A stretch of 64,000 nt of DNA from Pontiella agarivorans (GCF_034531395.1 NZ_JARVCO010000010.1:310001-374000); one strand, 5' to 3'; positions 2,741 to 43,366 are shown, counted from the stretch's first letter. Notes: a model not told the origin generated them from the sequence alone. Made by a program: numbers and translations.

Positions 2741-3979
2741 CTATGCATTTTCGCCTGCCACGAATCCGGTGGTCCAGCAGAGCTGCAGCGAGAAACCGCC
2801 GGAGGGGCGGCTGATGTTGAGCATGTCGCCGGTGATGAACACATTGGGGTGCAGGCGCGAGGCCATGGTCCGGGTGTCGACTTCTTCGAGCGGGATGCCG
2901 CCGTCGCAGACGACGGCCCAGTCGTAGCCCATGGTGGCGGTTACCGTCAGCGGCAGGTTTTTCATGAGCCGGGCTAACTGTTTCCGTTCCTCCTGCGTGA
3001 CCACATTCACCTTTTTTTCGAGAAGTTCAACGGGCAGATTGGCATTCAGCGTTTTAGCCATTCCGGCGGGAACCAGCAGTCGGGTGACATTGCGGATGAT
3101 CTTGTTTTTGTTGTCGTCAAAAACCGCCAGAACTGTTCGATCAATCTCGTTGATTTCCCGTTTCGGAAAGAGGTCGATGGCGCCGGCGACGGGCCCCTGT
3201 TTCAACAGTTTTTTCACTTCGTGGGCGCTGTTGAGAATCAGCGGACCCGAGATCCCGAAGTGGGTGAAGAGGATTTTTCCTTCGCGGAAAAGGGCCGTTC
3301 CGTCTTTGGCGGTAAAGGTGATGCGCATGGGATCGAGCGCAGTGCCGGAGAGCTCTTTCACCCATTGTTCTTTCACCCGCAGGGGCACAATATCGGGTGT
3401 GGCTTTAATGATGGTATGGCCGATTTTTTCCAACCATTGGAACGCTTCGCCGGTGGAGCCGGTTTCGGGATAGGCCGTTCCGCCGGTTGCGAGAATGATG
3501 CTTTCGGAACGGATGGCGCCGTCGCGGGTCTGAACGCCGCAGACCTTTCCGTTTTCGATCAGCAGACCTTTTACGGCGGAGCTGAAGCGGCATTCCACAT
3601 CATATTCCGCCATGTATTTCCGCAGGGCGCGCGTGACGTCGGCGGCATTATCGGTTTTCGGAAAGGCGCGTTTCCGGTCTTCGGAAATATAGAGCGGGAG
3701 GCCGAGGTTTTCGAAAAATTCAAAGGTATCGTGTGCGCCAAAACGGGAGAACGGCGAAAAGAGAAATTTGGCGTATTCCGCGTAGTTGGCGAGAAATTCG
3801 CGGTGATCGAATTCTCCGTTGGTGATGTTGCAGCGTCCGCCGCCGCTGAGTTCGAGCTTTTTTCCGGGGGCCGGATTTTTTTCCAGCAGCAGGACGTTCC
3901 GGCCATATTCCGCCGCATGCCCTGCGGCGATCATTCCGGCGGGTCCGCCGCCCACTACGATGACGTCAAAATGTTCCAT
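2741..3979 (-). CDS. HI0933/YhiN-family FAD-dependent oxidoreductase
   Basis: 412 residues. The N-terminus carries the dinucleotide-binding motif DVIVVGGGPAGMIAAGHAAE (residues 5-24) followed by the acidic strand end LLLEKN. GKKLELSGGGRCNITN (about 39-54) is the signature of the HI0933-like flavoprotein family, and ILATGGTAYPETGSTG (about 161-176) is its second FAD motif. The C-terminus ends in ITGDMLNISRPSGGF, which closes the FAD site. The in vivo reaction is unknown for most members; some reduce steroid double bonds (BaiN). Cytosolic. The coding sequence contains a perfect TTCCA-N5-TGGAA palindrome at 3427-3441, read as F-Q-W-L-E. Confidence 0.88.
   Translation of the reverse strand: MEHFDVIVVGGGPAGMIAAGHAAEYGRNVLLLEKNPAPGKKLELSGGGRCNITNGEFDHREFLANYAEYAKFLFSPFSRFGAHDTFEFFENLGLPLYISEDRKRAFPKTDNAADVTRALRKYMAEYDVECRFSSAVKGLLIENGKVCGVQTRDGAIRSESIILATGGTAYPETGSTGEAFQWLEKIGHTIIKATPDIVPLRVKEQWVKELSGTALDPMRITFTAKDGTALFREGKILFTHFGISGPLILNSAHEVKKLLKQGPVAGAIDLFPKREINEIDRTVLAVFDDNKNKIIRNVTRLLVPAGMAKTLNANLPVELLEKKVNVVTQEERKQLARLMKNLPLTVTATMGYDWAVVCDGGIPLEEVDTRTMASRLHPNVFITGDMLNISRPSGGFSLQLCWTTGFVAGENA
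3427..3441. repeat. TTCCA-N5-TGGAA palindrome, copy in flavoprotein gene
   Basis: Perfect arms with spacer ACCAT (plus strand). In the minus-strand gene it is read TTC CAA TGG TTG GAA. Confidence 0.85.
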
Positions 3980-4058: not shown

Positions 4059-5048
4059 ATGAAGTGGTGGATTCTATCTGTTGGGCTGGTTTTTACACCT
4101 GCTGTTTGGGCCGGATCGGTTTTTGTTGATTTTGAAAAACAGTTGATTTTTCCGCAGGAGCTTGCGGGGATGTCCTGCGCCGCGTTCGCGAAATATGAAA
4201 ATGACAACCTTGGCTATTCGGTGATGTATACAAACGGATCATTCCGTTGCGGGGTTTCATTGCTCAATATGGGCCGTTCTGAAATTCCTGACGGGTACCG
4301 GGGCGAAGGCGTGGACATGATGTTCGAAGCCGTTGAAACCGATCTGCAGCGCCGTGAAGAGGAGGGCCGGATTTCCAACGTGCGGAATCGGGGGGGAACC
4401 GTAGTGCCGAAAAAGTCGCCTCTGCAGTTTGCGAATAACGTTTTCCAATATCTGGAAAACCGGGATTCCGGGGCCGGCCAGGAAGCGGTTCCCTGCATTC
4501 AGTCGGTTTATATTACGGGCAGCCACAACCATTTTGTCAAAATGACATTCAGTTTTGATGTGGCGGAAAATCAGCAGGCACGGATGATCGCGGACCGGCT
4601 GTTGAAAGAGCTGGTTCTTCTGCTGATTGCAGAACCTTCGGAAAAAGAGCTGCTGCTGGCAGCGTGCGATGCGGCGGTTTATGATCCGGCGGGGTACTCG
4701 GGGCAGACGGCGGCGCAGCGTGTCTATGCAAAAATTCAGAACATGGACGGATTAAGTTTTTACGATGCGTTTTTTGTCTGGCCGCAGGAGCGTTACCGAA
4801 AACCGAAAAATGCCGATTTTCTGACGACAGCCTATTTTGCGGGGATGCTGCGGGCGGTGCTGCCGGAGGATCTGGAGAGCGGCGGGGAAGTGGAGGCGTT
4901 CGAGGCCATGCTGGAGGCCTATGAAAATATGCGCGCACGTGATCAAATTACGGAGATACCACAGCTTGAAGAATGGATAAAGGCCGGGGACCGCCGGGCG
5001 CTGTATCAGAAACTGCTGGTGGAGTTCGGTTATGCGGTGGCGGAATAG
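4059..5048 (+). CDS. Secreted protein of unknown function
   Basis: 329 residues, ATG preceded by AGGGGG. The first 19 residues form a Sec signal peptide ending VWAGS. The mature protein is soluble and mixed alpha/beta, with no transmembrane segment after the leader. It has a beta-rich first half (CAAFAKYENDNLGYSVMY, then a VYITGSHNHFVKMTFSF strand near residue 155) and a helical, acidic second half ending at residue 329. I do not recognise the family. It is followed after 104 bp by the autotransporter gene in the same orientation, so a role at the cell envelope is possible. A perfect palindrome copy lies inside the gene at 4443-4457. Confidence 0.75.
   Translation: MKWWILSVGLVFTPAVWAGSVFVDFEKQLIFPQELAGMSCAAFAKYENDNLGYSVMYTNGSFRCGVSLLNMGRSEIPDGYRGEGVDMMFEAVETDLQRREEEGRISNVRNRGGTVVPKKSPLQFANNVFQYLENRDSGAGQEAVPCIQSVYITGSHNHFVKMTFSFDVAENQQARMIADRLLKELVLLLIAEPSEKELLLAACDAAVYDPAGYSGQTAAQRVYAKIQNMDGLSFYDAFFVWPQERYRKPKNADFLTTAYFAGMLRAVLPEDLESGGEVEAFEAMLEAYENMRARDQITEIPQLEEWIKAGDRRALYQKLLVEFGYAVAE
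4443..4457. repeat. TTCCA-N5-TGGAA palindrome, copy in secreted-protein gene
   Basis: Perfect arms, spacer ATATC, read as TTC CAA TAT CTG GAA (F-Q-Y-L-E). Confidence 0.8.
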
Positions 5049-5123: not shown

Positions 5124-5138
5124 TTCCAACCATTGGAA
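5124..5138. repeat. TTCCA-N5-TGGAA palindrome in front of autotransporter RBS
   Basis: Intergenic, spacer ACCAT. The right arm is followed by ACAGGAG, the Shine-Dalgarno of the 5153 gene, so the palindrome would sit in the 5' untranslated region. Confidence 0.85.
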
Positions 5139-5152
5139 ACAGGAGTTTTTGA

Positions 5153-8100
5153 ATGACACGCTTTTTGAAGATTTTAGGCTTATCGTTGGCTTTGAGTGGA
5201 TTTGCGCAGGCGCAGTACACCAATGTGATTGAGGGGGGACAAACCGTACCGGTTTCCAGCGACTGGAATAACGGCGGTACGAACCTGATCGTCGGCGGAA
5301 CTTCGGGCGGAAATACACTGAATATCAATACGGGGTATGTGGTCTCGAACAGCAGCGAAGTGGTTATCGGCCGCGATGCTGGGGCGGCTGGAAATACCGT
5401 CAGTCTCGACGGTTCAGGGTTGCTGGTGAACGGCGATTTGACCGTCGGCCGCGACGGGAACGATAATCGGTTAATGATCGACGATGAATCTTATGTCGAA
5501 AATACCCATGCGTATGTCGGGGCGAATTCGGACGGCAATGCCGTTTCGGTTACTGATTACAGTGTATGGAATAATCAGGGCACACTCTATCTGGATTCCG
5601 GTTCCGGCAACAGCGTTTCCGTCAGCGGCGGTGGTCAGGTGCTGGCCGACAGCCTGCAGCTGAGCGCGGACAATACGTTTAATCTGAATCAGTCCGGTGT
5701 GCTTCTGCTGCGTTCTGATTTCAACGCTTCGACCGCTGGTTTCAGCTGGAATACAGGGGGGCATCTTTATCTGACCAACGGGACGCTTAGCGGACTTTCT
5801 GAGACCAATGGTATTACCTATCTTCACGATGCACGGGATCTGACGCTGAATGATTCGGATTTGGATGCATCGGGCACGGATCTGACGGTTGGAAATAATG
5901 GTTCAAACAGCGATCTTCAGATTTTGAACGGCGGTACGGTGGAAGCGGATAACGGGATAATCGGTTCGGGCAGCGATGCGGCGAACAATTCCATCATGGT
6001 TTCCGGCGAAGATTCCAGTCTGCGTTTCTCCGAGGGGGGACTGAAGATTGGTGTTGATGCCGGAACGGGCAACGCGCTTGGTGTTTTTGACGGAGCGTGG
6101 ACGTTTGTCGGAGATGCCGCAGAGGGCGATGTTGCCGGCACGACCAACGGCGGTCTGATTGTTGCGCATTCCACCGGGGCGACGCTGGAGCTGGATAACA
6201 GTGCCAGGGTCAGTGTCGACGGCGGTCTGTTTGTCGGAACTGCCGGCGGGGGAACCGGTACGGTGACTGTTGAAAACGGCAGTTCGGTCAGCGTTGGAAC
6301 CGTTGATATTGAGGACGGCAGCAGCATCGAACTTCAGGACGCCGGCAGCTTTTCAGTCGCGGGTGATTTTATCTACGGCAACGACATGACGAAATTTATC
6401 TGGGGGAATAATACGACGCTCGGTGTTGGTGGAACGCTGACGAGAACGAGCGGTCTGGATGGAACGCAGCGGACGCTGAATCTCAACGGCGGTGATTGGG
6501 CTCTGGCGGACAGCACGGTGGTTTCGGGGGTCAGCAATACGGTGCAGGTGCTGGATGGCGGTTCGCTGACGACGACGAGCGGATTGCTTTCCGGAACGAA
6601 CAATGCGGTGGTGGTTTCCGGTAGTGATTCGCAGTGGGAAAATACCGGTTTTCTTTATGCGGAAGGAACGAACAACAGTGTTTCCGTGGCTTCCGGAGGG
6701 AAGGTTTCGGCAACCGGTGTCGATTTTGATGATGGCAATGTATTCAATATCAATTCCGGCGGTACGCTGGCGTTGACCACCAATCTGTTCGACTGGTCGG
6801 CTGCGGCAAACATCAATTGGAACAGCGGCGGTAATCTGGCGCTGATCAACGGTGAATTTACGGGGCTGGATAGCACAAACCTGGTGTTCAACGGTGCCAC
6901 GAACAGCGCGGTTTCAGTGGGTAACGGGCGCAGTCTTACGCTTGAAAACGGGACCTGGGATGACCATTCCACCGACCACCTGGTGGTGGGATTGAATCGG
7001 AGCGGGGAAACGATCAGTATTTCCAATAAAACAACCATGGCTCACAACGATGCCTATATCGGGTGGGGCAGTGGTTCCGGCGGAAACAGTGTTGTAGTTT
7101 CCGATGCCGATACGCTTTGGGAAGTGCAGGGCGGCGATCTTTATATCGGAGCCTACTGGGCCAATGGAACCAATCTGACCGGAACCGGCGGAAATGATAA
7201 TTATCTCTATGTTCGTGACGGCGCTCAGGTGTTTGTCGGAGATGCCACGACCAACGAGGCCGGTGTGTTGGTGGCCTCCAGCGGCGGAGCAAGCATGACG
7301 CTCGGGGATGGCCGGGTGGAGATTGACGATACGCTCTTTATCGGTCAGGGAGTGAATACCGGCGCTGTCACGATTATGGACGGCGGCGATATGCGGGTCG
7401 GCGATCTGGAGATTGCGGCCGGCAGTGAACTGGACCTGCAGGAGAACGGAATCTTCCGAATCAGCAACGATCTGAATATGGATGCTTTGGCCGGAAACGG
7501 ATTCGACTGGTATTCCACCAATTCCACCATTCAGGTGGACGGAACACTGACGCGTTCGGACTATTTTCTGGATAAAGAACAGAATCTGATTCTCGGAACG
7601 AACGGTCTGTGGAATACCGGCGGGGCGGATCTGATTGTGGGTGTGGACGGCAACAGTAAACTGACGGTGCGCGATACCGGGGAACTGAATGCGGGAAATA
7701 TTACCATCGGGGGAGCGGTCAGCAACAGCGGTTCCAGTGCGGTTATCGTGGATGGCGGCGGCGTTCTGAATGCGACAGATGTCACCATCGGAGCCGAGAC
7801 TGACAGCAATTATCTGGAAATTTCTGATCAGGGTTCCGTGAACCTGCTTGGTTCGGTGTATCTCGGCGGGACCAATTCGACGGGGAACTATGTGTTGCTC
7901 GATGGTTCCAATACCACGATGAATATCGGTGGGGATCTGTTGGTTGGTGCTGCGGATACCAACAGCGCCGAAAATGTTTTCTATCTCCAGAACAAGGCGG
8001 AGCTGACGGTGGACGGCGACGTCTCCATCTTCGGCGGCAACCGGATGGCCCTGAACGGAGCGACCAATTCGGTTGGTGGAGATTTTACGGTTTACAGCAA

Positions 8101-9873: not shown

Positions 9874-11205
9874 ATGCTGTCATTCGGATGTTTATGTGTG
9901 CTGCTGGGACTGGGCTACTGGCTCCGTCGCAGAATCGTGTTGCTGCAGAAACTCTACCTTCCGGCCAGCGTCATTGCCGGGTTGCTCGGTCTGTTGTTTT
10001 TCCAAATCCTTGATGTTCCGGCGGAAGTTTCCAAAGGCTGGAACCTGCTGCCCGGTCAGTTGATCAATGTGGTGTTCGCCTGCCTTTTTCTGGGGACCGC
10101 ACTGCCGCCGGTTTCCAGAGTCTGGAAAAGTTCCAGCCGTCAGCTCGCCTACGGCCAGATCGTGGCGTGGGGACAGTACGCAGTCGGCTGCTTTTTTGTA
10201 CTGCTTATGCTCAAGCCTTTTTTTGATCTTCCCGATATTTTTGCCGGCATAATGCCGGTCGGGTTCGAGGGCGGCCACGGAACGGCCGGCGGTATGGGTC
10301 CGGCCTTCGATGAACTCGGTTTCCCGGAAATGAAGGATTATGCCCTCGCCGCGGCTACCGGCGGGATTATGGGCGCGATTATTGTCGGGATGGGGCTGGT
10401 GAACTGGGCCGTTCGCAAAGGTTATGTCGAACGTAAGGTGAAGCCGGGCGTCGATATTGAAGATTACTCCGGTCTGATTCCGCATGAGCACCGTCCGGCA
10501 GCCGGAAAAATCAGTGTTTCCTCTGATGTCATCGGCTCGCTTTCGCTGCATCTGGTTTTTGTCGGAGCGGCCATTCTGCTGGGTTGGCTGATGAAAGAGG
10601 GGATGATTTTCGCAACGCGCGGGCTTCCGGAAACAGGCCAAGATATTTTTGAGAGTTTTCCGCTTTTTCCGCTCTGTATGCTGGGCGGTGTGGTGGTTCA
10701 GTTTCTGGCCGATCGGCTGGATCCGCACGAGCATATGGACGAAGGCCTGATGTTGCGCATTCAGAACTGTGCGCTCGATTTTCTGGTGGTTGCCGCCATT
10801 GCGACGATCCGCATTGATGTGGTGGCACAGCAGTGGGTTCCGATTGTGATGCTGGTTCTGGCGGGTATTGGTTGGAATGTACTGATGCTTACGGTTTTTG
10901 CACGTCGGGCATTTAACGATGCCTGGTTTGAACGCGGGATTGCTGAAATGGGGCAGTCGATGGGCGTGACGGCCACCGGTCTGTTGCTGCTGCGGGTGGT
11001 GGATCCGGATTATGAAACCGAAGCGGCTGAAGCCTTTGCCGCGAAACAGCTGCTGCATGAACCGTTTATGGGCGGCGGGCTTTGGACCGGTGCGGCGATC
11101 CCGTTGCTGGCGCTGTGGGGCGGATGGCCGATTTTCGGGATTGCTGTCGGAGCCATTGCAATCTGGACGACAGTCCTGTTTATTCTCAACCGTCGTGCGG
11201 TGTGA
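9874..11205 (+). CDS. gltS: GltS-type sodium/glutamate symporter
   Basis: 443 residues, preceded by CAGGGG. The protein has about ten to twelve hydrophobic segments and the diagnostic loop MPVGFEGGHGTAGGMGPAF (about residues 127-145), which in GltS is a re-entrant transport loop. A second related loop, near residue 360, reads MGQSMGVTATGLLLLRVVDP. It would import glutamate, or a related dicarboxylate, with sodium across the inner membrane. The first transmembrane segment starts immediately at the chosen methionine, leaving no signal peptide. A perfect palindrome copy lies inside at 10113-10127. The downstream outer-membrane protein gene is 36 bp away in the same direction and may be cotranscribed. 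Confidence 0.87.
   Translation: MLSFGCLCVLLGLGYWLRRRIVLLQKLYLPASVIAGLLGLLFFQILDVPAEVSKGWNLLPGQLINVVFACLFLGTALPPVSRVWKSSSRQLAYGQIVAWGQYAVGCFFVLLMLKPFFDLPDIFAGIMPVGFEGGHGTAGGMGPAFDELGFPEMKDYALAAATGGIMGAIIVGMGLVNWAVRKGYVERKVKPGVDIEDYSGLIPHEHRPAAGKISVSSDVIGSLSLHLVFVGAAILLGWLMKEGMIFATRGLPETGQDIFESFPLFPLCMLGGVVVQFLADRLDPHEHMDEGLMLRIQNCALDFLVVAAIATIRIDVVAQQWVPIVMLVLAGIGWNVLMLTVFARRAFNDAWFERGIAEMGQSMGVTATGLLLLRVVDPDYETEAAEAFAAKQLLHEPFMGGGLWTGAAIPLLALWGGWPIFGIAVGAIAIWTTVLFILNRRAV
10113..10127. repeat. TTCCA-N5-TGGAA palindrome, copy in gltS
   Basis: Perfect arms, spacer GAGTC, read as TCC AGA GTC TGG AAA (S-R-V-W-K). The rsmD copy at 61447 has the same spacer and frame in an unrelated protein. Confidence 0.85.
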
Positions 11206-13914: not shown

Positions 13915-14002
13915 CCTTTGCCACGGAAAACACAATAAACCACGGGAATTGAAATGCCTCTTTTTGTGACTTTTTGTGTTCTTTGCGGCTATTCTCCCGG
14001 CC

Positions 14003-14716
14003 ATGCGCATTAATTCACTAGTTGAGACGGATGAGCTGGAGAAAGAGATTGCCGTTCTTTCTCCGGAGGAGTCGCATCATCTGGCCCGCGTTCTGCGGGT
14101 TCAGTCCGGGCAGGAAATAACCCTGTTCGACGGGCAGGGCGGCGTGGCGGAAGGCGCCATCGAAACCGTTTCCAAAACCGCGGTCGAGGTGCGGATTTCC
14201 AACCATTGGAAGGTGCCGAAGCCCGAAGTTGAAATCGATCTGATCCAGGCGGTGCCGAAACCGGACCGCTGGGAGCTGGTGCTGCAGAAAGCGGTCGAAC
14301 TCGGGGCCACGACGATCCGCCCGGTGCTGACGAAGCATACCGAGTTCAAACCGAATCCCAAAAAACAGGCCCGCTGGGATAAAATTGTTTATAATGCGGC
14401 TCAGCAGTGCGAAGTCCGCTGGCTGCCCGATCTCCAACCTTTGGAAAAGTTCGACGCCGTGGTTCCAACCCTTGGAAACTTCGACCTCGTCCTCATCGGC
14501 TCGCTATACGAAGGTGCAAAGCCCTTTCGCGAAGTTCCTATGGTTGGAAAAACCAAAGTGGCCCTGCTGATCGGCCCCGAAGGCGACTTCTCGGAAAAGG
14601 AAGTAAAGGCCGCCATCGACGCCGGCGCCGTCCCCGTCTCCTTCGGCGACCGCATCCTCCGCACCGAAACCGCCGCAATTTTTGGTTTAAGCGTGCTGGC
14701 TTACGAACTTTTGTAG
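14003..14716 (+). CDS. rsmE: 16S rRNA (uracil-1498-N3)-methyltransferase, copy 1
   Basis: 237 residues from MRINSLVE; the upstream extension to 13976 is rejected because the second copy starts at the same MRINSLV. The N-terminal PUA-like part includes SPEESHHLARVLRVQSGQ; the SPOUT domain includes VQKAVELGATTI-type sequence (LQKAVELGATTIRPV), the SAM-binding LLIGPEGDFSEKEV and the knot end DRILRTETAA. It methylates U1498 of 16S rRNA. It follows dnaJ by 88 bp. The gene contains two perfect palindromes and two one-mismatch copies (14432-14446 and 14535-14549), each read in a different frame. The copy at 18827 is a close paralogue; which one is functional cannot be decided, since both are intact. 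Confidence 0.95.
   Translation: MRINSLVETDELEKEIAVLSPEESHHLARVLRVQSGQEITLFDGQGGVAEGAIETVSKTAVEVRISNHWKVPKPEVEIDLIQAVPKPDRWELVLQKAVELGATTIRPVLTKHTEFKPNPKKQARWDKIVYNAAQQCEVRWLPDLQPLEKFDAVVPTLGNFDLVLIGSLYEGAKPFREVPMVGKTKVALLIGPEGDFSEKEVKAAIDAGAVPVSFGDRILRTETAAIFGLSVLAYELL
14197..14211. repeat. TTCCA-N5-TGGAA palindrome, rsmE copy 1, site A
   Basis: Spacer ACCAT, read TCC AAC CAT TGG AAG (S-N-H-W-K). The aligned site in rsmE copy 2 keeps both arms but has spacer ATCAT. Confidence 0.88.
14463..14477. repeat. TTCCA-N5-TGGAA palindrome, rsmE copy 1, site C
   Basis: Spacer ACCCT, read CCA ACC CTT GGA (P-T-L-G), a different frame from site A of the same gene. Confidence 0.88.
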
Positions 14717-14884
14717 ACTGCGCTGAATCTCGCGCAGGAAACACGCCAGGGAATAGACCCATATTTCTGATGGCTGGTGCCGAACGATGGATCTGCAGGT
14801 TTTAAACGCTAGGCAGATTCATGAAACCTGAACAACAGGCCGGTCGTCTTTATTATTAGCAACAAGCTGTTGGCTGCTGCGCTG

Positions 14885-15454
14885 GGGCTGTCAAACGCTG
14901 ATCGACAGCGCCGCGGTTCTTGAGATCGACGATCCGCTGCTGCCGAAGTGGAAGAATGTGCTCGATCGCTTGGTGGACTATCCCGTGGATGAAACCGGGC
15001 TGATGATCGGCAAGGATGTGCCCTATGCCAAATCGCACCGCCACTATTCGCAGCTGCTGATGTTTTATCCGCTGAGTACGATGAATCTGGACGACCCCGC
15101 CGAGCGCGCGCTGGCGCTGAAATCGCTGAAGCACTGGCAGTGCTTTCCGGAAGCGCTCGCCGGCTACTCCTATACGGGCTCATCCTCCATGTATTCACTG
15201 TTGGGCGACGGCGAAATGGCGGAACAGCGCATGTAGGATTTCTTCGACGACAAACTGCTGCCGAATACCTTCTACAAGGAGGGCTCGCCGGAACAATGAA
15301 AGTGACCGGCGTGCAGGCCGGCGCGGTGAAAGAGCTCGGCGGCGGTGTGGTTGAAATTGCGCTGGAGAAGGGCGGAACCGCCGTGCTTTCCGATGCCTCC
15401 TATACCGGGGATTTCGTGATCCGCCCGGTGGAAAAGAAATTCAGCGCCGACTGA
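14885..15454 (+). pseudogene. Degenerate GH95-like glycosidase remnant
   Basis: A frame beginning near 14889 reads LIDSAAVLEIDDPLLPKW, then a stretch with SHRHYSQLLMFYPLS, the His-rich motif and Tyr-Pro pattern of the catalytic (alpha/alpha)6 barrel of GH95-type alpha-L-fucosidases and relatives. It then hits TAG at 15234-15236 and TGA at 15297-15299. After a frame change, a C-terminal beta-sandwich-like piece (VTGVQAGAVKELGGGVVEI) ends at 15454. The N-terminus and several hundred middle residues are missing, so it cannot make an active enzyme. It lies just downstream of rsmE copy 1 inside the duplicated and rearranged region. The family assignment is by eye and could be a related glycosidase. 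Confidence 0.6.
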
Positions 15455-15479
15455 CGCTGGGGCGTAAAATAATTCGTAC

Positions 15480-15527
15480 GACGTTGCCTGCGCTCCGCGC
15501 AGGTCAACGTCCGATGCTCCGCGGTGG
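15480..15527. repeat. REP-like repeat, left copy
   Basis: Contains the dyad CCTGCGC TCC GCGCAGG inside GACGTT...AACGTC arms, followed by CCGCGGTGG. It matches the 17019-17066 copy in the same orientation with about seven differences in 48 bp. Confidence 0.75.
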
Positions 15528-15530
15528 TAG

Positions 15531-15551
15531 GGCGGTCTGTCCCAGACCGCC
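15531..15551. repeat. Perfect 9-bp stem-loop
   Basis: GGCGGTCTG, loop TCC, CAGACCGCC. No T-run follows, so it is more likely an interspersed palindromic repeat than a terminator. Confidence 0.6.
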
Positions 15552-15998
15552 GACCACGCGGTTGTATTGTGCCGCGATGATCTCTCTCGTTGGGACAGAA
15601 TGATTAAATGACAGGATAATTTAGAAAAAATCCGGACACCCCATCAGGCGCGGCGCCTCACTTCGTGCAATTCGCGTACATTCGTGATCCAAAACTCTTT
15701 TGTGTTTTCTGGGTATTCTGTAGTTCAGGATTCTAGCGGCGTCTTTCGGGTCCGCCGTTTTTGTACCCTTTGTTTTCTTTGTGCTCTCTCGGGGCAAATA
15801 ATCTCACTATTCAGCGCCGGATCTAATGGGACGGAAATATCCGACCGCATCCTGCGGGTTTCTAGGTGATGCAGTATGTCATCAATGCCGAACCATTGAT
15901 TCGTTACTTAAATTATAAATGTAATATTTCGGAACCTTAGTCGTGTAAAATGCATAAATACATTATACTATATATATAAAAAGAAAGGTGTATAGGTG

Positions 15999-16979
15999 AT
16001 GACCATGAAATGGATTGTAGCGATCTTGTATGCGGCGGGTTTAATCGGAGGCGTCGCGGCGGAAACGGTGTATCTAACCCGCAACGCCGAATTTGACGTC
16101 GATTGGGTGGAGCCCTCTCTTTGGAGCAACGGGGAGACACCGAGCGCGGAGAACGACTATGTGTCGGACTGTTTCACGATGAGGATGCATAATGACGCTC
16201 CTGTTTTTTCCGGGCGTTCCTTCCTTGTTAAGGGGAATGGCGGGATTAGCCTGAAAACCGAGAACATGGTTGCGACGGTCACCAATCTGGTGATGAATGG
16301 CGGGAGTGTTAACGTCGCAAGCGCGGGGCATATGACCCTTGCGGGGGATCTTACGGTAGCAGGCGGCGGATTCGTCACTTACACCAGTGGCGACGCATCC
16401 CGAAGTCTTACGGTTGCATCGTTTATAATGGGCTCGGGGCCCATTTATATCGGCCCGCCGAACTCATCGCTCCCCTTTGGGTCCATTGCGTTCTCCAATT
16501 CGGAAAGCACGTGGAGCGGCGATTTACTTATCCTTTCGGATGGTTCCGCCTCATTTGAATACGACCTGATTGGCGACTCGCTCATATTCGGGGTAGCCGA
16601 CGCGCCCGTGGGTATGCTTGATTTGAATGGCCGCGCCGTCACATTCGATGATCTGACCATTGGTGGAGAAGTCTATGCCGCAGGCGTGTACACCTCCACT
16701 AATCTGCCCGCGCGTCTTCAGGGGGAGGGCACGCTGACCATCCTGAGCACGCCGGCTCAGGAAATCACGTTGACCAGTCTTGATGAAAACGGAACGCTTT
16801 CCTGGAACAGCACCGCGGCGGGCGAGTGGAGCTACACGGTTGAGTGGGCTTCAACTCCGGAAGGGCCGTGGACCAACACGTGGGACCACCTCTCCGCAAT
16901 CATCTCGACGCAGACCGTCCATGCGGTGAATGTGCCGCGGTTCTATCGCGTGAAGGGCATTGCCGTGGATGCCGATTAG
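15999..16979 (+). CDS. Secreted beta-strand-repeat protein between direct repeats
   Basis: About 326 residues. ATG 15999 or 16005 are both possible; AGGTG at 15994 favours 16005 by spacing. The leader MKWIVAILYAAGLIGGVAAE is a Sec signal peptide. The body looks like the autotransporter-associated beta-strand class (DLTVAGGGFVTYTSGDASRS, LDLNGRAVTFDDLTIGGEV), followed by a C-terminal domain (TLSWNSTAAGEWSYTVEWAS to FYRVKGIAVDAD) resembling the fibronectin-like or LTD-like ends of secreted Kiritimatiellota and Verrucomicrobia proteins. No barrel or anchor is visible. The gene and its AT-rich leader lie between two 48-bp direct repeats, suggesting a separately acquired cassette. Confidence 0.72.
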   Translation: MTMKWIVAILYAAGLIGGVAAETVYLTRNAEFDVDWVEPSLWSNGETPSAENDYVSDCFTMRMHNDAPVFSGRSFLVKGNGGISLKTENMVATVTNLVMNGGSVNVASAGHMTLAGDLTVAGGGFVTYTSGDASRSLTVASFIMGSGPIYIGPPNSSLPFGSIAFSNSESTWSGDLLILSDGSASFEYDLIGDSLIFGVADAPVGMLDLNGRAVTFDDLTIGGEVYAAGVYTSTNLPARLQGEGTLTILSTPAQEITLTSLDENGTLSWNSTAAGEWSYTVEWASTPEGPWTNTWDHLSAIISTQTVHAVNVPRFYRVKGIAVDAD

Positions 16980-17018
16980 CCCGCCGACCGCCGTTCGGCT
17001 GTTGAGTACTGCCCGCCC

Positions 17019-17066
17019 GACGTTTCCTCCGCTGCGCGCAGGTAAACGTCCGCTGCACCGCGGTTG
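17019..17066. repeat. REP-like repeat, right copy
   Basis: Second copy of the 15480 element (GACGTT...GCGCAGG...AACGTCCG...CCGCGG). A 13-bp piece of the same element (CGGTCAACGTCCG) recurs at 17111-17123 and supplies the stop codon of the LacI fragment. Confidence 0.75.
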
Positions 17067-17113
17067 ATTTGCCCATCCAGTGTAGAGGGCGCTTACCCGA
17101 AGGGAAGCGTCGG

Positions 17114-17416
17114 TCAACGTCCGGGCAGCATGGGGCCGTCCATCCAGCGGCCTTCAACGAGGATTTCTTTCGGGGAGGCCGGAATGCCGTAGCTGTTTTC
17201 ATTCAGCTGCGAGACGAGGGACTGGACGGCGGTGCGGCCGATCTCTTCGGGATTCTGGTCGATGCCGGCGTTGATGGGGTTGTCGTAGCGGCTCATGGAG
17301 GCCATGCCGATCTCTTCAGGGATTTTCCGGCCGAGTTCTTTCATGGATTGGACGATGAGCGGCGCGCTGCAGATGACGGCATCGGGTTTTTCTGTTTCGA
17401 GCCAGCGGGCGAGCAC
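17114..17416 (-). pseudogene. LacI-family regulator, C-terminal fragment
   Basis: About 100 residues of the sugar-binding domain of a LacI/GalR regulator: WLETEKPDAVICSAP, ELGRKIPEEIGMASMS, then IDQNPEEIGRTAVQSLVSQL and the terminal ILVEGRWMDG. The DNA-binding half and the first ligand-domain lobe are missing. The 5' break is against the GAAAGGTGTCAG repeat tract and the 3' end runs into REP-like sequence, so it appears cut on both sides by repeat activity. It cannot be a functional repressor on its own. Confidence 0.7.
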
Positions 17417-17494
17417 GAAAGGTGTCAGCGAAAGGTGGGAAAGGTGTCAGGAAAGGTGAGGAAAGGAGGAAAGGTGTCAGAGGAAAGGTGTCAG
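17417..17494. repeat. Degenerate tandem repeat of transposon terminus
   Basis: Four exact GAAAGGTGTCAG units (17417, 17439, 17469, 17483) plus three shortened ones (GAAAGGTG, GAAAGGTGAG, GAAAGGAG) in 78 bp. The last unit overlaps the left inverted repeat of the RAYT element, whose end is GGTGTCAG. Confidence 0.8.
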
Positions 17495-18563
17495 TCCTAT
17501 TATTACATCATTTCTCTTGAGTCGGCGGGCGGGGGTGGATAGAAACGGGTCATGGGAAGATGTCCGAGAATTGAATATGAGGGAGCGGTGTATCATGTGA
17601 TGAGCCGGGGGAATCGGCAGGAGCCGGTTTTCCGAACTGATCGGGATCATGAGGTTTTTCTGGATACCCTGGGTGAAGCGTGCGACCGCTGCGGATGGCG
17701 GGTGCATGCTTTTGTGCTAATGGGGAATCACTACCACCTGCTGATTGAGACGCCAGAGGCGAATCTGGTGGATGGGATGCGCAGGCTGCAGGGGACATAT
17801 ACGAAGCGGTTTAATCTGCGGCATCAGTTGTGGGGACATCTTTTTCAGGGCCGCTATAAGGCGCTGGTGGTTGATCCGGCGGGCGATTATTTTTCGACGG
17901 TTGCGAGTTATATTCATTTGAACCCGGCGCGGGCGAAGTGCTTTGATCTGGAAAAGGGCTGCTTGGAGGATTATGCGTGGAGTAGCTACCCGCTTTATAT
18001 GAATCCGTCGAGGCGACCTGAGTGGTTGCGCGTTGAGCGTACGTTGGGAAATTTAGGTTTGTCGGATGATCGGGCCGGCCTGAAGGAATACTCCCGCATT
18101 ATGCAGAAGCGGGTTCTTGAGATAGCCTGTAGTGCGAATCCGGGCGAGGTGGATGAGCGGTGGGCGTTGATTCGTAAAGGCTGGGCTTTCGGCGGGGATA
18201 ATTTCCGGTCGCAACTTCAGGAGGTTCTTGATGGTGTGATGGACGGCAATCGTCGGGAGTCCTACTCTGGAGAGCCTGTTAAAAAGCATGATGAGCGAGA
18301 AGCCGAACGTTTGCTGGCTGAAGGGCTCAGAAGGCTGAAGGTAGATGATGCTGATTTAGCCTTGCTGAAGAAGGGGGACAATCGCAAAAAAGTGGTGGCG
18401 TGGATCATTCGTAAAAAGACGAGTGTGAAGAATGAATGGATTGTTCAGCGTTTGCATATGGGGCGCGCTTCCAATCTGTCTCGATATGTAAAAGATGTGG
18501 ATGAGGCGAAAGAGGGGGAATTGTGGGAACTCAACGAAATGATGAAATAATAGGACTGACACC
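17487..18563 (+). mobile_element. RAYT element with 18-bp terminal inverted repeats
   Basis: The left end at 17487-17504 reads GGTGTCAGTCCTATTATT, and the exact reverse complement occupies 18546-18563, overlapping the transposase stop codon. The element is 1,077 bp with one gene. It sits between the LacI fragment and the duplicated dnaJ tail. No target duplication is evident. Confidence 0.8.
17552..18550 (+). CDS. REP-associated tyrosine transposase (RAYT, Y1 family)
   Basis: 332 residues. The Y1_Tnp/HUH-like nuclease core covers about residues 1-150: MSRGNRQEPVF, then MGNHYHLLIE with the metal-binding His-x-His at 60-62 and the catalytic Tyr83 in GTYTKRFN. GRYKALVV and SYIHLNPARA, both diagnostic for RAYTs, follow. 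The C-terminal part (about 245-320, NRKKVVAWIIRKKTSVKNEW) looks like a helix-turn-helix, as seen in a long RAYT subfamily. RAYTs cut single-stranded REP palindromes and are linked to their spread. The gene has intact ends and all visible catalytic residues, so it may be active. REP-like repeats are 0.5 and 2 kb upstream. Confidence 0.9.
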   Translation: MGRCPRIEYEGAVYHVMSRGNRQEPVFRTDRDHEVFLDTLGEACDRCGWRVHAFVLMGNHYHLLIETPEANLVDGMRRLQGTYTKRFNLRHQLWGHLFQGRYKALVVDPAGDYFSTVASYIHLNPARAKCFDLEKGCLEDYAWSSYPLYMNPSRRPEWLRVERTLGNLGLSDDRAGLKEYSRIMQKRVLEIACSANPGEVDERWALIRKGWAFGGDNFRSQLQEVLDGVMDGNRRESYSGEPVKKHDEREAERLLAEGLRRLKVDDADLALLKKGDNRKKVVAWIIRKKTSVKNEWIVQRLHMGRASNLSRYVKDVDEAKEGELWELNEMMK

Positions 18564-18566
18564 CCC

Positions 18567-18742
18567 ATCAGCATGTGCAGGTGAAAATCGAAGTGCCCGC
18601 CCGGCTCTCGGGCAAGGAAAAGAAGGCCATGCAGAAGCTCGTCGAGCAGCTGCACGATAATCACTTCGAAGAAACCGCCCGCATGAAAAAGCAGGCCGAT
18701 AAATTCTACGAGCGCAAAAAGAAACTTGAATCCGATGGATAG
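18567..18742 (+). pseudogene. Duplicated 3' end of dnaJ
   Basis: Starting at the right end of the RAYT element, the frame reads [20 protein letters not shown] and continues to a TAG at 18740-18742. This is the last 57 codons of DnaJ with a few substitutions (for example [19 protein letters not shown]). It has no start and no J-domain. Together with rsmE copy 2 it marks a tandem duplication of the dnaJ-rsmE junction. Confidence 0.9.
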
Positions 18743-18826
18743 GGATCAGGCAAAATAATTTTGTGGCGGAATGATTTCCGATGCCTGGAAAATTATTCTG
18801 CCACTGAATGATTCTGCCCTTAAGAA

Positions 18827-19540
18827 ATGCGGATTAATTCACTAGTTGATGCAGCGGAGCTGGAGAAGGGGATCGCGGTCCTCTCTCCGGAGGAATCGCA
18901 TCATCTGGCCAGAGTCCTGCGCGTTCAGCCCGGCCAGGAAATCACCCTGTTCGATGGGCAGGGCGGCGTGGCGGAAGGCGCCATCGAAACCGTTTCCAAA
19001 ACGGCCGTCGAAGTCCGCGTTTCCAATCATTGGAAGGTGCCGAAGCCCGAAGTTGAAATCGATCTGATCCAGGCGGTGCCGAAACCGGACCGCTGGGAGC
19101 TGGTGCTGCAGAAGGCGGTCGAACTCGGGGCCACGACGATCCGTCCGGTGCTGACGAAGCATACCGAGTTCAAACCGAATCCGAAAAAACAGGCGCGGTG
19201 GAGTAAAATTGTGCTCAACGCGGCGCAGCAGTGCGAGGTGCGCTGGCTGCCGGATTTCCAGCCCCTGGAAAAGTACGATGCCGTGGTTCCAACCCTTGGA
19301 AACTATGACCTCGTGCTGGTCGGATCGCTCTATGAAGGAACCCGGCCGTTTCGCGCGGTCGATATTGAAGGTAAAAAGCGGGTGGCGCTGCTGATCGGCC
19401 CGGAGGGCGATTTCACGGAAGCTGAAGTTCAGGCCGCCGTCGATGCCGGCGCGGTGCCGGTCTCCTTCGGGGAGCGGATTCTGCGGACGGAAACCGCGGC
19501 AATTTTCGGTTTAAGTGTCCTGGCCTATGAGCTATTGTGA
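18827..19540 (+). CDS. rsmE: 16S rRNA (uracil-1498-N3)-methyltransferase, copy 2
   Basis: 237 residues, same length as copy 1 and aligned without gaps. All SPOUT motifs are kept (LQKAVELGATTIRPV, LLIGPEGDFTEAEV, ERILRTETAA). Differences from copy 1 are concentrated at the two ends, while the middle (about 19032-19115) is identical at DNA level over roughly 80 bp. The intergenic DNA before the two copies is unrelated: here it carries GGCGGAATGATTTCCG-type repeats. parA follows in the same direction. Three perfect palindromes lie inside the gene. Either copy could be the main enzyme. Confidence 0.94.
   Translation: MRINSLVDAAELEKGIAVLSPEESHHLARVLRVQPGQEITLFDGQGGVAEGAIETVSKTAVEVRVSNHWKVPKPEVEIDLIQAVPKPDRWELVLQKAVELGATTIRPVLTKHTEFKPNPKKQARWSKIVLNAAQQCEVRWLPDFQPLEKYDAVVPTLGNYDLVLVGSLYEGTRPFRAVDIEGKKRVALLIGPEGDFTEAEVQAAVDAGAVPVSFGERILRTETAAIFGLSVLAYELL
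19021..19035. repeat. TTCCA-N5-TGGAA palindrome, rsmE copy 2, site A
   Basis: Spacer ATCAT; C-to-T change in the spacer relative to copy 1, arms unchanged. Confidence 0.88.
19256..19270. repeat. TTCCA-N5-TGGAA palindrome, rsmE copy 2, site B
   Basis: Spacer GCCCC, read TTC CAG CCC CTG GAA. The copy 1 equivalent at 14432-14446 has an imperfect left arm (CTCCA) and spacer ACCTT. Confidence 0.85.
19287..19301. repeat. TTCCA-N5-TGGAA palindrome, rsmE copy 2, site C
   Basis: Spacer ACCCT, identical to the aligned site at 14463 in copy 1. Confidence 0.85.
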
Positions 19541-21521: not shown

Positions 21522-21992
21522 TTATTTGAGTTTGTCCATCACACGTGGATCGACCGGAAGATCTATAGGCTCGCCGATTTCCAGACTCTGGAAATCCGGA
21601 TGAGCCGGATTCAGCAGGATGTTTGATTCAATGGGAACGATGGCACTCGGAACCCGAAGCGCCGGCGAGGTTTGGTTGCGCAGCCAGTTGTTCCCCGTCA
21701 GCAGTGTGGCGGGGTGAGGAAGCGGTGTATTCCATCCGGCTGGAAGGGCGGCGGGATCGATCGCTTCGATCTTTTTTTCAGGAACCCGGACCGGGATGGC
21801 TTTATAGAGTTTCAGCGTTTCCTTGAATTCGAGGTGCACGATGATTTCCAGAAGCGACAGGGAAAGCGAGGCGGCGGTATACACCATGGAAAAACCTTCC
21901 GAGTTCCAGCGGCCGCCGGCCAGTCGGGCACCTTCGCCGTTGAAGGCATCGGCCAGATAGGCCGAATGAACAAGTCGCCAGCAGGTCTGCAT
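21522..21992 (-). CDS. RES-domain toxin
   Basis: 156 residues, full length for the family. The three residues that name the domain are visible: Arg in CWRLVHS and GGRWNSEG (about residues 6 and 28), Glu in LLEIIVHLE (about 47-55), and Ser in RVPSAIVPIESN (about 113-124). RES toxins degrade NAD+ and act with an Xre/MbcA/ParS-type antitoxin, which is the gene directly upstream (14 bp). Cytosolic. A perfect palindrome lies in the C-terminal coding part at 21579-21593. Confidence 0.9.
   Translation of the reverse strand: MQTCWRLVHSAYLADAFNGEGARLAGGRWNSEGFSMVYTAASLSLSLLEIIVHLEFKETLKLYKAIPVRVPEKKIEAIDPAALPAGWNTPLPHPATLLTGNNWLRNQTSPALRVPSAIVPIESNILLNPAHPDFQSLEIGEPIDLPVDPRVMDKLK
21579..21593. repeat. 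TTCCA-N5-TGGAA palindrome, copy in RES toxin gene
   Basis: Plus-strand spacer GACTC; read on the minus strand as TTC CAG AGT CTG GAA (F-Q-S-L-E). Confidence 0.85.
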
Positions 21993-22006
21993 GAAATCCC
22001 CGTTTC

Positions 22007-22585: not shown

Positions 22586-22600
22586 TTCCAATCATTGGAA
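22586..22600. repeat. TTCCA-N5-TGGAA palindrome in front of isomerase RBS
   Basis: Intergenic, spacer ATCAT. The right arm runs directly into AAGGAG, the Shine-Dalgarno of the 22613 gene. Confidence 0.87.
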
Positions 22601-31572: not shown

Positions 31573-33228
31573 ATGAAAAAATCATGGCTGGTGGCTGTTG
31601 CCGCCGTGCTTACAGGCGGTGTGTCCGCCAAAACCGGGCGCGCTGACGCGGCGCTATCGAAACCTAACATCATCATCTTTTTTGCTGATGATATCAGCGC
31701 ACGCGAGTTTCCAAGCTATGGAAGTTCGGTCTGGACGGCGCCGGATTCTTCCGATACTTCGGATCTGAATTATCGTGCAAAGACCCCGGTGCTCGACAGG
31801 CTGGCTGAAGACGGGTGCATGATACGGACCTGCTGGGGGGCGACGTTGTGTAATCCGAGCCGCGCCATGATGATGAGCGGGCGCTATGCACACATCACGA
31901 AGTGGTGGAACAATGGCGACAAAGGGCGCGGTCCTGATGAAACGGGCAAGGTGGTGTATGACTGGCCGGTGTACGTGAGCTCACCGCTGCTGTTGGGGCA
32001 TGTTGCGCAGAAAGCGGGCTATGGCACCTATTGGTCGGGTAAGACCCAGATGTCGGGCCGCGAAGATCTTCATGGTTTTGACGAGGGATGTTTCACGCCG
32101 GGTAAATATATGGCGACGGATAATCCCTATACAGATTTCCGGCATGGCCTGATTGAAAAGGACGGTAAAAAAATACTGATTAATGCCGATACGGGAAAGC
32201 CGTGTGAGAGTTACTATCAAAACGGGTGGTACTGGGCTCCGCATGTGAGTCTGATGAATCATCCTTCGGCTCCGGGAAGGCAGGTCTGGTGGCCCAACAC
32301 GCCGGAGGCACAAAAGAAGTTTGGGCTGCATACTTTCGGACCGGATGTGGTGCTTGATTTCTGTTTTGATTTTATGGAACGCACGCATGCCGAGGGCAAA
32401 CCGTTCCTGATTTATCATACTTCCCACCTTGGGCACGATGCGTTCAATTGGCTCGATCCTGAGCATAAGCAATGGCCGAAGAGCAAGTGGCCCAATACTC
32501 CGATTGTAAAATGGGATGGCAAAAAATATACTCGTATTCCGCCGCGAATCACCGGGGATAACGGGGTATATGATACCCATGGAACGATAACGGGAGCGGG
32601 GATTCACAACCACGTTACCTATATTGATTATCAGCTTTGGCTCTATCAGCAGAAGCTTGAACAGATGGGTATTGCGGATAACACCGTGATTATCGTTGCC
32701 GCCGACAACGGCACCAGCGGATATGGAAAAGGAAATACGGATCGTCAGAAGGGCTGTCATGTTCCGCTGTTTATTTATGCACCGGGAATGAAAAAGCATG
32801 GGGAGCAGGATGTGCTGGCCAACCTGACCGACATTATGCCGACGGTCGCCGATCTGGTGGGTTTCGATATTCCTGATGACTATGAAGTGAATGGAAAAAG
32901 TCTGGTTCCGTTTCTGTTCACGAACAAAAGCGAGCATCGGAAATGGATCTACAGCTACCGCGGTTCAGAGCAGCTCATCCGCGGTAAAAATGTCATGAAA
33001 GACGGCCGCGGCAGGTGGTGGGATGTTTCATCCGAACCGGATGATCTGATCAGTTTTACGGAAATTAAGAACTGGGGACGTGTCGGTGAGGTATACCGCG
33101 AAGAGCATGCAATGCTGCAGGATATGCTGCCGAAGTTTGATCTCTACTTTGATGAACATGGAGCACCGGGCGTTGATGACAAGCCCAGTCCGAAAAATCT
33201 GAAGAAATATTTCAGAAAAGAAAAATAG
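31573..33228 (+). CDS. Secreted S1 family sulfatase
   Basis: 551 residues from ATG 31573, chosen because GGAG lies 6 bases upstream of it. Signal peptide MKKSWLVAVAAVLTGGVSA. The N-terminal metal site is PNIIIFFADD. The formylglycine motif is C93-N-P-S-R with the following MMMSGR, so the anaerobic- or FGE-type maturase should oxidise Cys93. VAADNGTSGYGKG near residue 378 is the second metal-site region. It hydrolyses a sulfate ester of a glycan or aryl substrate in the periplasm or outside. First of five sulfatases on this strand. A perfect palindrome occurs at 31709-31723, coding P-S-Y-G. Confidence 0.93.
   Translation: MKKSWLVAVAAVLTGGVSAKTGRADAALSKPNIIIFFADDISAREFPSYGSSVWTAPDSSDTSDLNYRAKTPVLDRLAEDGCMIRTCWGATLCNPSRAMMMSGRYAHITKWWNNGDKGRGPDETGKVVYDWPVYVSSPLLLGHVAQKAGYGTYWSGKTQMSGREDLHGFDEGCFTPGKYMATDNPYTDFRHGLIEKDGKKILINADTGKPCESYYQNGWYWAPHVSLMNHPSAPGRQVWWPNTPEAQKKFGLHTFGPDVVLDFCFDFMERTHAEGKPFLIYHTSHLGHDAFNWLDPEHKQWPKSKWPNTPIVKWDGKKYTRIPPRITGDNGVYDTHGTITGAGIHNHVTYIDYQLWLYQQKLEQMGIADNTVIIVAADNGTSGYGKGNTDRQKGCHVPLFIYAPGMKKHGEQDVLANLTDIMPTVADLVGFDIPDDYEVNGKSLVPFLFTNKSEHRKWIYSYRGSEQLIRGKNVMKDGRGRWWDVSSEPDDLISFTEIKNWGRVGEVYREEHAMLQDMLPKFDLYFDEHGAPGVDDKPSPKNLKKYFRKEK
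31709..31723. repeat. TTCCA-N5-TGGAA palindrome, copy in first sulfatase gene
   Basis: Spacer AGCTA, read CCA AGC TAT GGA. The spacer does not follow the R-N-C-N-Y trend of most copies, so this one could be coincidental. Confidence 0.6.
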
Positions 33229-40016: not shown

Positions 40017-41594
40017 ATGAATAAATATGCAGTGAAAGCAGCTGTCGTCATAGGGTGCGCTGTACTGAGCGGGAGTTTGCAGGCGGAAGCGGCGTCCCAA
40101 CCGAATATCATTATGATTTTTGCGGATGATCTGGGGTGGAAGGATCTCGGATGCACGGGCAGTGCATATTATGAGACGCCGAATCTTGATGCACTGGCCG
40201 CCAACGGAATCCGATTTACGCAGGCGTATGCTCCGGCTCCGGTATGCGCACCTTCCCGTGGAGCGGTGTTGAGCGGGCGAACGCCGGCACGCAATAAATT
40301 CACGACAGTGTATAAATCGAAAAGTGCTCCGGATGATCGCCTCTTTGAGGTCAGCAAACAGCTTGGTGTCGGTAATCAGACATTGGAAGGTAAACACCGG
40401 CATACGCTCGGCAGCGAGGCGGTTCTTATTTCTGAACGGTTGCAGAAATCCGGCTACACCACAGGCTTTATTGGAAAGTGGCATATTGGAATTCTGGACG
40501 GGTATCGGCCGGAGCAGCGCGGGTATGATATGGCGGCGGGATATTACAGGAATATCGATGTCGAGTTTGCTGACCATTACATAAAAAACCTGACCGATCT
40601 GGTGAATTTGCCGCATGCGAAAAAAGGGGACTGGCGTGAGGATCTGTATGCTGAAACGGTATGCGATTTTATTGCAGCGAACAAAGACAGACCTTTTTTT
40701 CTCAGCTATCACAGTTATCTGACCCATGGCCCTTTTGTTGGTAAGAAAGAGCTGGTTGGTAAATATGAGAAGAAGGTGAAAACGGATCAGAACAATCCGA
40801 AGTATGCATCGATGGTCGAAGCTCTGGATGACAGTGTCGGAAAGATAGTGGAGCAACTGATCCGCTTTGATCTCCTGGAAAATACGCTGCTTATTTTTAC
40901 CAGTGATAATGGCGGCTGCGGCGGCACATCGAACTATCCTTTGATGGGCGGAAAAGGCTTCTCTTATGAAGGGGGATACCGGGTGCCGCTGCTGGCGCAC
41001 TGGCCTGAAAAGATTCCGCCCGGGCAGGTCAATTCTACCCGGGTGACCGGCGTAGATCTGTATCCCACTTTTTTGAATGTGGCGGGTGAACAGCCGGATC
41101 CGGATTATGCATTGGATGGAATGAGCCTGATGGGGGAAATGACCGGAGGGGCTAAACTTCCGGAACGGCCGCTTTATTTTCATTATCCGCATTATTCAAG
41201 AAATTCATCTCCTCATTCGATTGTAATTTCCAACGGGTGGAAGCTGATCCGGTATTATAACGATGCGGCGGGACGGTATTGTTTGTTTAATCTGGATGAA
41301 GATCCGCAGGAGCAGAAGGATCTGTCGGCCGTCTTTCCGGAACGGGTAAATGAATTGGATAAAATGATCGATACTTATTTGGAGAGTGCTGATGCCTCAC
41401 TTCCTGTTATCGCTGACAGTGACGAGGGGCGTGATTTGCTTAAGCGCTACAAAGCCGGAACGGTTATCGGTGATGCGGACAATGTCAGAGATAAAAAAGC
41501 GGCCGTTGTAAATAAGGCGGTTGAGCTGAAAAAAGCAATGGCCATGCGCAGAGGGGCAGAGAAGAGAATGGAAGCATATGCCGCTCAGAAATAA
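40017..41594 (+). CDS. Secreted S1 sulfatase
   Basis: 525 residues from ATG 40017, AGAGG nine bases upstream; open sequence before it is not used. Signal peptide VVIGCAVLSGSLQAEAA. Metal site PNIIMIFADDLGWKDLGCTG. The motif C77-A-P-S-R followed by GAVLSGR marks the formylglycine site. TSDNGGCGGTSNYPLMGGKG near residue 299 and YEGGYRVPLLAHWP complete the fold. The C-terminal tail (residues about 450-525) is Lys/Arg/Ala-rich and less usual. A perfect palindrome lies in the gene at 41228-41242, read as S-N-G-W-K. Confidence 0.92.
   Translation: MNKYAVKAAVVIGCAVLSGSLQAEAASQPNIIMIFADDLGWKDLGCTGSAYYETPNLDALAANGIRFTQAYAPAPVCAPSRGAVLSGRTPARNKFTTVYKSKSAPDDRLFEVSKQLGVGNQTLEGKHRHTLGSEAVLISERLQKSGYTTGFIGKWHIGILDGYRPEQRGYDMAAGYYRNIDVEFADHYIKNLTDLVNLPHAKKGDWREDLYAETVCDFIAANKDRPFFLSYHSYLTHGPFVGKKELVGKYEKKVKTDQNNPKYASMVEALDDSVGKIVEQLIRFDLLENTLLIFTSDNGGCGGTSNYPLMGGKGFSYEGGYRVPLLAHWPEKIPPGQVNSTRVTGVDLYPTFLNVAGEQPDPDYALDGMSLMGEMTGGAKLPERPLYFHYPHYSRNSSPHSIVISNGWKLIRYYNDAAGRYCLFNLDEDPQEQKDLSAVFPERVNELDKMIDTYLESADASLPVIADSDEGRDLLKRYKAGTVIGDADNVRDKKAAVVNKAVELKKAMAMRRGAEKRMEAYAAQK
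41228..41242. repeat. TTCCA-N5-TGGAA palindrome, copy in sulfatase 40017
   Basis: Spacer ACGGG, read TCC AAC GGG TGG AAG. Trp-Lys-Leu is a common sulfatase C-domain pattern, so protein constraint may explain part of this copy. Confidence 0.6.
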
Positions 41595-43351: not shown

Positions 43352-43366
43352 TTCCAGGCATTGGAA
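43352..43366. repeat. TTCCA-N5-TGGAA palindrome between sulfatase and permease
   Basis: Intergenic copy, spacer GGCAT, 43 bp after the sulfatase stop. Not adjacent to a ribosome binding site. Confidence 0.8.

Follow-up and report, generated by a model that had tools for sequence, protein, structure and literature searches.

The window, a 64,000-nucleotide stretch of the Pontiella agarivorans genome, carries two copies of rsmE, the second 89% identical to the first in amino acid sequence; most relatives have a single close copy. The gene was duplicated along with the 3' end of dnaJ (13800-14716 and 18590-19540), a dnaJ remnant precedes copy 2, and pieces of other genes lie between the copies. 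The same interval contains a Y1_Tnp (IS200-like/RAYT-type) transposase gene at 17552-18550, whose unit (17487-18563) is bordered by 28-bp inverted repeats that are 96% complementary and have GGTGTCAG ends; more GAAAGGTGTCAG fragments lie by this unit at 17417-17490. The two rsmE genes and their palindromic sites, which are given without a strand, are as follows.

14003..14716, + strand: rsmE copy 1 (16S rRNA m3U methyltransferase; Pfam Methyltrans_RNA and PUA_4), with sites A, B', C and degenerate D
14197..14211: site A of copy 1, TTCCAACCATTGGAA; arms kept in high-density orthologues, spacer varies
14432..14446: near-site B' of copy 1, CTCCAACCTTTGGAA, one mismatch, coding for LQPLE
14463..14477: site C of copy 1, TTCCAACCCTTGGAA, exact match, 31 bp from B'
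14535..14549: degenerate site D of copy 1, TTCCTATGGTTGGAA, one mismatch
18827..19540, + strand: rsmE copy 2 (Pfam Methyltrans_RNA and PUA_4), with sites A, B and C
19021..19035: site A of copy 2, TTCCAATCATTGGAA, exact match
19256..19270: site B of copy 2, TTCCAGCCCCTGGAA, exact match, coding for FQPLE, 31 bp from site C
19287..19301: site C of copy 2, TTCCAACCCTTGGAA, exact match, identical to copy 1

An earlier note had aligned these sites between the two copies. Its description of site A, with identical arms around a differing spacer, was confirmed in letters and coordinates, as was the identity of site C in both genes. At site B a Leu-to-Phe change does separate the full site of copy 2 from the CTCCA..TGGAA of copy 1, but the copy-1 near-match is largely protein-driven: in the rsmE alignment, CTCCA..TGGAA (Leu-Gln/His-x-Leu-Glu), including the LQPLE codons, is kept in many relatives with a low density of sites too. 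Protein constraint thus explains the near-match; the full site of copy 2 was completed by the Leu-to-Phe change. The site at 14535 in copy 1 has been erased in copy 2, as had been claimed, but is itself a one-mismatch near-site. Because this position is intact in G225, G240, G265 and the low-density G256, site D is an old site that has degenerated in copy 1 and been erased in copy 2.

The four rsmE sites of the earlier note are members of an element with about 1,150 copies in the genome. The 4.44-Mb genome holds 1146 instances of TTCCA-N5-TGGAA but only 5 of the reversed pattern that served as control, and the window holds 20 exact sites where dinucleotide shuffles give 0.13 and Markov models at most 0.28. 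Within an 854-kb sample of the genome, a gap of exactly 5 was the sole enriched spacing (224 sites versus about 3.6 expected), with neighbouring gaps at background. Together, the shuffles, the Markov models, the reversed pattern and the gap-5 counts exclude chance as the source of the sites. The logo from these 224 sites is symmetric, (T)TTCCA-R-N-S-N-Y-TGGAA(A); 92% of copies have G:C at the spacer centre, and conservation extends no further than two or three bases into the flanks. Among near-misses, A5 to G and T1 to A are the commonest changes, and arm positions 2-4 are strict. Outside the full element, the short core CCA-N5-TGG shows no enrichment of its own (GCCA..TGGC 18, ACCA..TGGT 5 and CCCA..TGGG 8, versus 224 for TTCCA..TGGAA). 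Searches of the open literature, for the motif itself and for palindromes in the class, yielded no description of it. The sites in the window outside rsmE, again without a strand, are listed below.

3428..3442: TTCCAACCATTGGAA, exact match
4443..4457: TTCCAATATCTGGAA, exact match
5124..5138: TTCCAACCATTGGAA, intergenic, exact match
5254..5268: TTCCAGCGACTGGAA, exact match
10029..10043: TTCCAAAGGCTGGAA, exact match, intact in the G225 orthologue
10113..10127: TTCCAGAGTCTGGAA, exact match, intact in the G225 orthologue, 84 bp from the 10029 site
21579..21593: TTCCAGACTCTGGAA, exact match
22586..22600: TTCCAATCATTGGAA, intergenic as we called the genes, at the margin of an ORF that starts with TTG at 22595
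31709..31723: TTCCAAGCTATGGAA, exact match
41228..41242: TTCCAACGGGTGGAA, exact match
43352..43366: TTCCAGGCATTGGAA, intergenic, exact match
45235..45249: TTCCAAGGGTTGGAA, exact match
58833..58847: TTCCAGCCTTTGGAA, exact match
61447..61461: TTCCAGAGTCTGGAA, exact match
61705..61719: TTCCACGGACTGGAA, exact match

The window also encodes a pair made up of a RES-domain toxin and an Xre/MbcA/ParS-type antitoxin, at 21522-22462.

A scan of 240 genomes of the phylum showed that the motif is abundant only in the class of the window, where it is patchy, and that other classes are at background. The element is confined to one Verrucomicrobiota class, Kiritimatiellia-type by record titles. Where named records hold a pair of sites at a three-turn distance, their titles read Kiritimatiellae, Lentisphaerae, Pontiellaceae or Verrucomicrobia, except for one Spartobacteria bin, one Firmicutes bin and several bins of uncultured bacteria. 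Within the genus, copy numbers are 20, 20, 167, 1146, 2237 and 2297, or 1 to about 390 per Mb, and on the rsmE protein tree, which is poorly resolved, density must have shifted between high and low about five times. Genome by genome, the spacer ends follow R..Y or Y..R almost to the exclusion of the other, and these dialects switch within families: Y..R accounts for 298/302 sites in G065 versus 1/467 in G087 (family f10), and for 129/141 in one genome versus 0/131 in another (f16) and 151/183 versus 0/179 (f7). In G061, a genome of another class, the reversed pattern AAGGT-N5-ACCTT occurs in 55 copies and the forward pattern in none; this is perhaps a different over-represented palindrome.

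The earlier note had read the rsmE pattern as favouring selection on the arms, or their repeated creation, rather than the protein, a reading with which arms evolving at the synonymous rate would be at odds. Genome-wide, between the high-density genomes G000 and G225, the arms evolve more slowly: third-codon identity is 0.87 in arms, 0.63 in spacers, 0.48 in 15-base flanks and 0.51 elsewhere (arms versus elsewhere, p 2e-20). At 75% amino acid identity between these two genomes, 30/46 coding sites of G000 are intact in G225, versus 3.9 expected. In contrast, the low-density G246, which is closer (87% amino acid identity), has kept 6/30, versus 6.7 expected (retention in G225 versus G246, Fisher p 1.5e-4), and the third-codon identity of its arms to G000 is 0.73 versus 0.65, which is not significant. 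Third codon positions of the arms are thus preserved from one high-density genome to another but wear away in G246, so that some genomes maintain the arms and others lose them. These comparisons show selection on the kept sites in high-density genomes and neutral decay of the sites in G246. The earlier reading survives its own refuting condition, with site B as the exception.

In a codon alignment of rsmE from 22 genomes, both arms of sites A and C are intact in 6/7 copies from the six genomes with >200 sites per Mb, which include another genus (G265); the seventh copy, in G240, has one mismatch at site A and one at site C. The codons between the kept arms change among these high-density genomes (SNHW, SRRW, SKRW). 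Sites A and C are lost in low-density relatives, and no indels occur at those positions. The extra one-mismatch copies per exact copy number about 0.44 in G247, 0.8 in G157, 1.2 in G000, 2.4 in G246 and above 5 in G084; a one-mismatch share that climbs as density falls is how relics would behave. Fourteen strict-consensus sites remain in four low-density genomes, mostly in unrelated genes, except for one surviving site in rpoN that G252 and G258 (L220, L223) have in common.

The placement of the sites was assigned with our own simple gene caller. In the 854-kb sample, 158 of the 224 sites lie in genes and 66 are intergenic, that is, 0.21 per kb of coding and 0.6 per kb of intergenic DNA, about a threefold difference. 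Coding sites use all three frames, with frame 0 commonest (70/158), and are spread evenly along genes; intergenic sites occur between tandem, divergent and convergent genes alike. An excess is seen 8-25 nt after stop codons, with 2.74 sites per kb versus 0.3-1.1 elsewhere, or 2.5 to 9 times other intergenic positions (G000:C10 and C2 sample; G225, G157). R and Y at the two spacer ends are independent (163/81/79/40, Fisher p 1.0), and on the mRNA strand non-pairing A..C (65) and pairing G..T (54) do not differ (p 0.36). The independent spacer ends and the lack of mRNA-strand asymmetry indicate that double-stranded DNA is read, with no RNA structure selected.

The spacing between sites was analysed in scans unselected for spacing, covering G265, G012, G115, G159, G330, G336 and G065. 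Up to 130 bp there are 50 distances between adjacent sites, and every one fell at 21-22 (18), 31-32 (26), 51 (2), 62-64 (2), 96 or 116 bp, and the set holds no off-phase distance; the Rayleigh p of about 1e-18 at 10.5 bp (n=50) overstates the phasing, because distances inside one array are not independent. At 80 loci chosen for a 31-bp double site, the other adjacent distances up to 66 bp were 21-22, 33, 41-42, 51-53 and 61-66. Phased arrays reach up to 8 copies. In G000 alone phasing is weak (p 0.03, distances up to 120 bp), and it is absent in the G225/G157 sample (p 0.46). Phased double sites were also found in 14 stretches of IMG/VR contigs. In three tailed-phage contigs (L313, L314, L323) the terminase is preceded by an array of four to six phased sites, and in L314 and L323 it is followed by portal genes; the terminases of L313 and L314 are 83% identical and that of L323 is distant (24%). 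That phages carry rather than avoid the element argues against a restriction target.

Several other explanations were weighed against this evidence. The transposase gene between the rsmE copies raises the thought that the element is a mobile repeat and that a REP-associated (RAYT/Y1) transposase of this sort spread it, but the flanks of the element are not conserved and rsmE sites A and C come and go by point substitution, without indels at those positions. The orthologue alignment thereby largely refutes this spread, which we regard as very improbable. A coding artefact, in which a recurrent peptide such as FQxLE or a similar one generates the sites, would fit the preference for frame 0; it is refuted by the use of all three frames, by the intergenic sites and by the constraint on synonymous arm positions, which is confined to high-density genomes, and deserves next to no credence. 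Arms able to pair, together with the enrichment shortly past stop codons, could instead denote an RNA-level element, either an mRNA hairpin or a weak terminator. Its compensatory pairing and strand-specific placement were not found, in that the spacer ends do not covary and mRNA-strand asymmetry is lacking; moreover, the sites are spread evenly along coding sequences, no Rfam family was found at the tested arrays, and the spacing follows the DNA helix. We consider it quite improbable.

Two explanations at the DNA level carry somewhat more weight, and both still appear unlikely, to much the same degree. One is a DNA uptake signal sequence built up by biased transformation. It would account for the hundreds of copies per Mb, the dialects, the decay in some lineages, the intergenic enrichment and the many sites just past stop codons, but it has no need of strict dyad symmetry or of phased arrays of up to 8 copies, and phages carry such arrays. 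ComEC (PF03772) does not track density, being present in 22/22 of the better genomes, high and low alike, and therefore neither supports nor excludes uptake. The other is a highly iterated palindrome of the HIP1 type, which an orphan DNA methyltransferase, together with methyl-directed mismatch repair, would create or keep. The copy number, the presence in genes and the all-or-none distribution among related genomes resemble HIP1 (PMC4390886); against this stand the CCA-N5-TGG core without enrichment of its own, a split site of 10-12 bases with helical phasing, which would not be expected, and the two methyltransferase families covered, PF01555 and PF00145, which do not track density, the high-density G253 having a hit to neither.

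We therefore favour, with a probability of roughly 0.68, the reading that the palindromes are binding sites of a putative abundant, sequence-specific, homodimeric DNA-binding protein that acts chromosome-wide, either nucleoid-associated or as a global architectural or regulatory factor. Each subunit would read one TTTCCA-R half, the two halves lying some 10 bp from each other in successive major grooves, and dimers would bind cooperatively along one face of the double helix when two, three or more of its turns separate their sites. The distance of about 10 bp between half-sites, the fixed gap, the phasing, the DNA symmetry and the paired changes in half-site specificity suggest a dimeric, cooperative major-groove protein. 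That the sites are spread over the whole genome and show no preference for promoters suggests that it is nucleoid-associated or global in its action rather than a pathway regulator. It is thus from the sites that we infer the protein, its dimeric state, its cooperativity and its role in the nucleoid. The excess 8-25 nt after stop codons counts against a purely architectural role, which does not predict it.

The families and syntenic comparisons examined did not reveal the binder. Lrp/AsnC, suggested by the 5+5+5 sites and the three-turn spacing, was rejected: nearly every genome has one copy at any density, and its HTH is similar in the high-density G000 and the low-density G084. The best DNA-binding candidate among G000 genes that G246 lacks at syntenic places is an XRE-type HTH protein (G000:C10:377883-378305), which has a charged N-terminal half and is encoded beside tRNA genes; its occurrence in the order is patchy, and it was set aside, being absent from the high-density G225, G157, G240, G265, G032 and G247 and present in the low-density G084 and G047. 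In the synteny comparison with G246, made on part of 19% of G000, those genes that G225 shares but G246 lacks looked on inspection to serve metabolism or transport, with no DNA-binding candidate among them; as at most 19% of the genome is covered, the binder gene may lie outside. No clue to autoregulation emerged, as the genes beside intergenic sites look like unrelated housekeeping genes.

Among known systems, MatP/matS and Noc/NBS organise the nucleoid through two-arm sites with a partly degenerate centre that are read by a dimer (matS is GTGAC-RNY-GTCAC). The element shares this dyad architecture; matS and Noc sites number in the tens and occupy restricted chromosomal zones, whereas the densest genomes here have 1,000-2,000 sites. 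Lrp/AsnC (FFRP) operators such as that of Ss-LrpB, TTGYAWWWWWTRCAA, are 15-bp 5+5+5 palindromes arrayed at intervals of about three turns, to which the protein binds cooperatively on one face. Such 15-bp dyads at whole helical turns are found in several lineages here (not significantly in G225/G157); Lrp/AsnC systems, however, have few operators per genome and the element far more copies, and the number of Lrp/AsnC genes does not track the sites, the single gene of this order being present at any density. The DNA uptake sequences of Neisseria and Pasteurellaceae have many copies, dialects and intergenic enrichment and are tolerated in genes, as is the element, but they are neither dyad-symmetric nor helically phased. 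By analogy, as judged from the sites, the element may work like phased FFRP operators or matS/Noc sites; this is a likeness and not a claim of membership.

Like HIP1 and the alternate HIPs of cyanobacteria (PMC4390886), the element is a short palindrome with hundreds of copies per Mb, lineage-wise presence and alternative versions in some genomes, and its over-representation extends across the genome, within genes as well as between them. HIP1 consists of eight contiguous bases that include methyltransferase sites (PMC4390886), whereas the element is a split 15-17 bp dyad with phased arrays, near-exclusive R..Y/Y..R dialects and no enriched methylase-like core. Nor is the six-base split core of a type II restriction-modification site (PflMI-like CCAN5TGG) the selected unit. 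REP/BIME sequences with RAYT transposases (PMC2817692) are likewise abundant palindromic repeats able to form regular arrays, but are mobile and extragenic. Unlike these units mobilised by a Y1 transposase, copies of the element arise by substitution, share no flanks and lie in genes in 158/224 cases.

A broader picture can be held only tentatively, at less than even odds: a class-wide bacterial chromatin system in which one dimeric, cooperative protein would serve up to about 2,000 sites, selected even in housekeeping genes, with specificity switched within families and the sites following, with phages that carry the same phased arrays, and with a clock-like decay of sites once the system is lost. 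If the sites serve one protein, few bacterial systems that organise the genome through specific sequences would be as dense. The element also bears on the function of HIP1-type palindromes. If true, the independent losses and specificity switches among related genomes would constitute a natural experiment, offering a way to measure the selection that maintains thousands of weak sites, to study the joint change in specificity of a DNA-binding protein and all its sites, and to learn why phages carry the same arrays.
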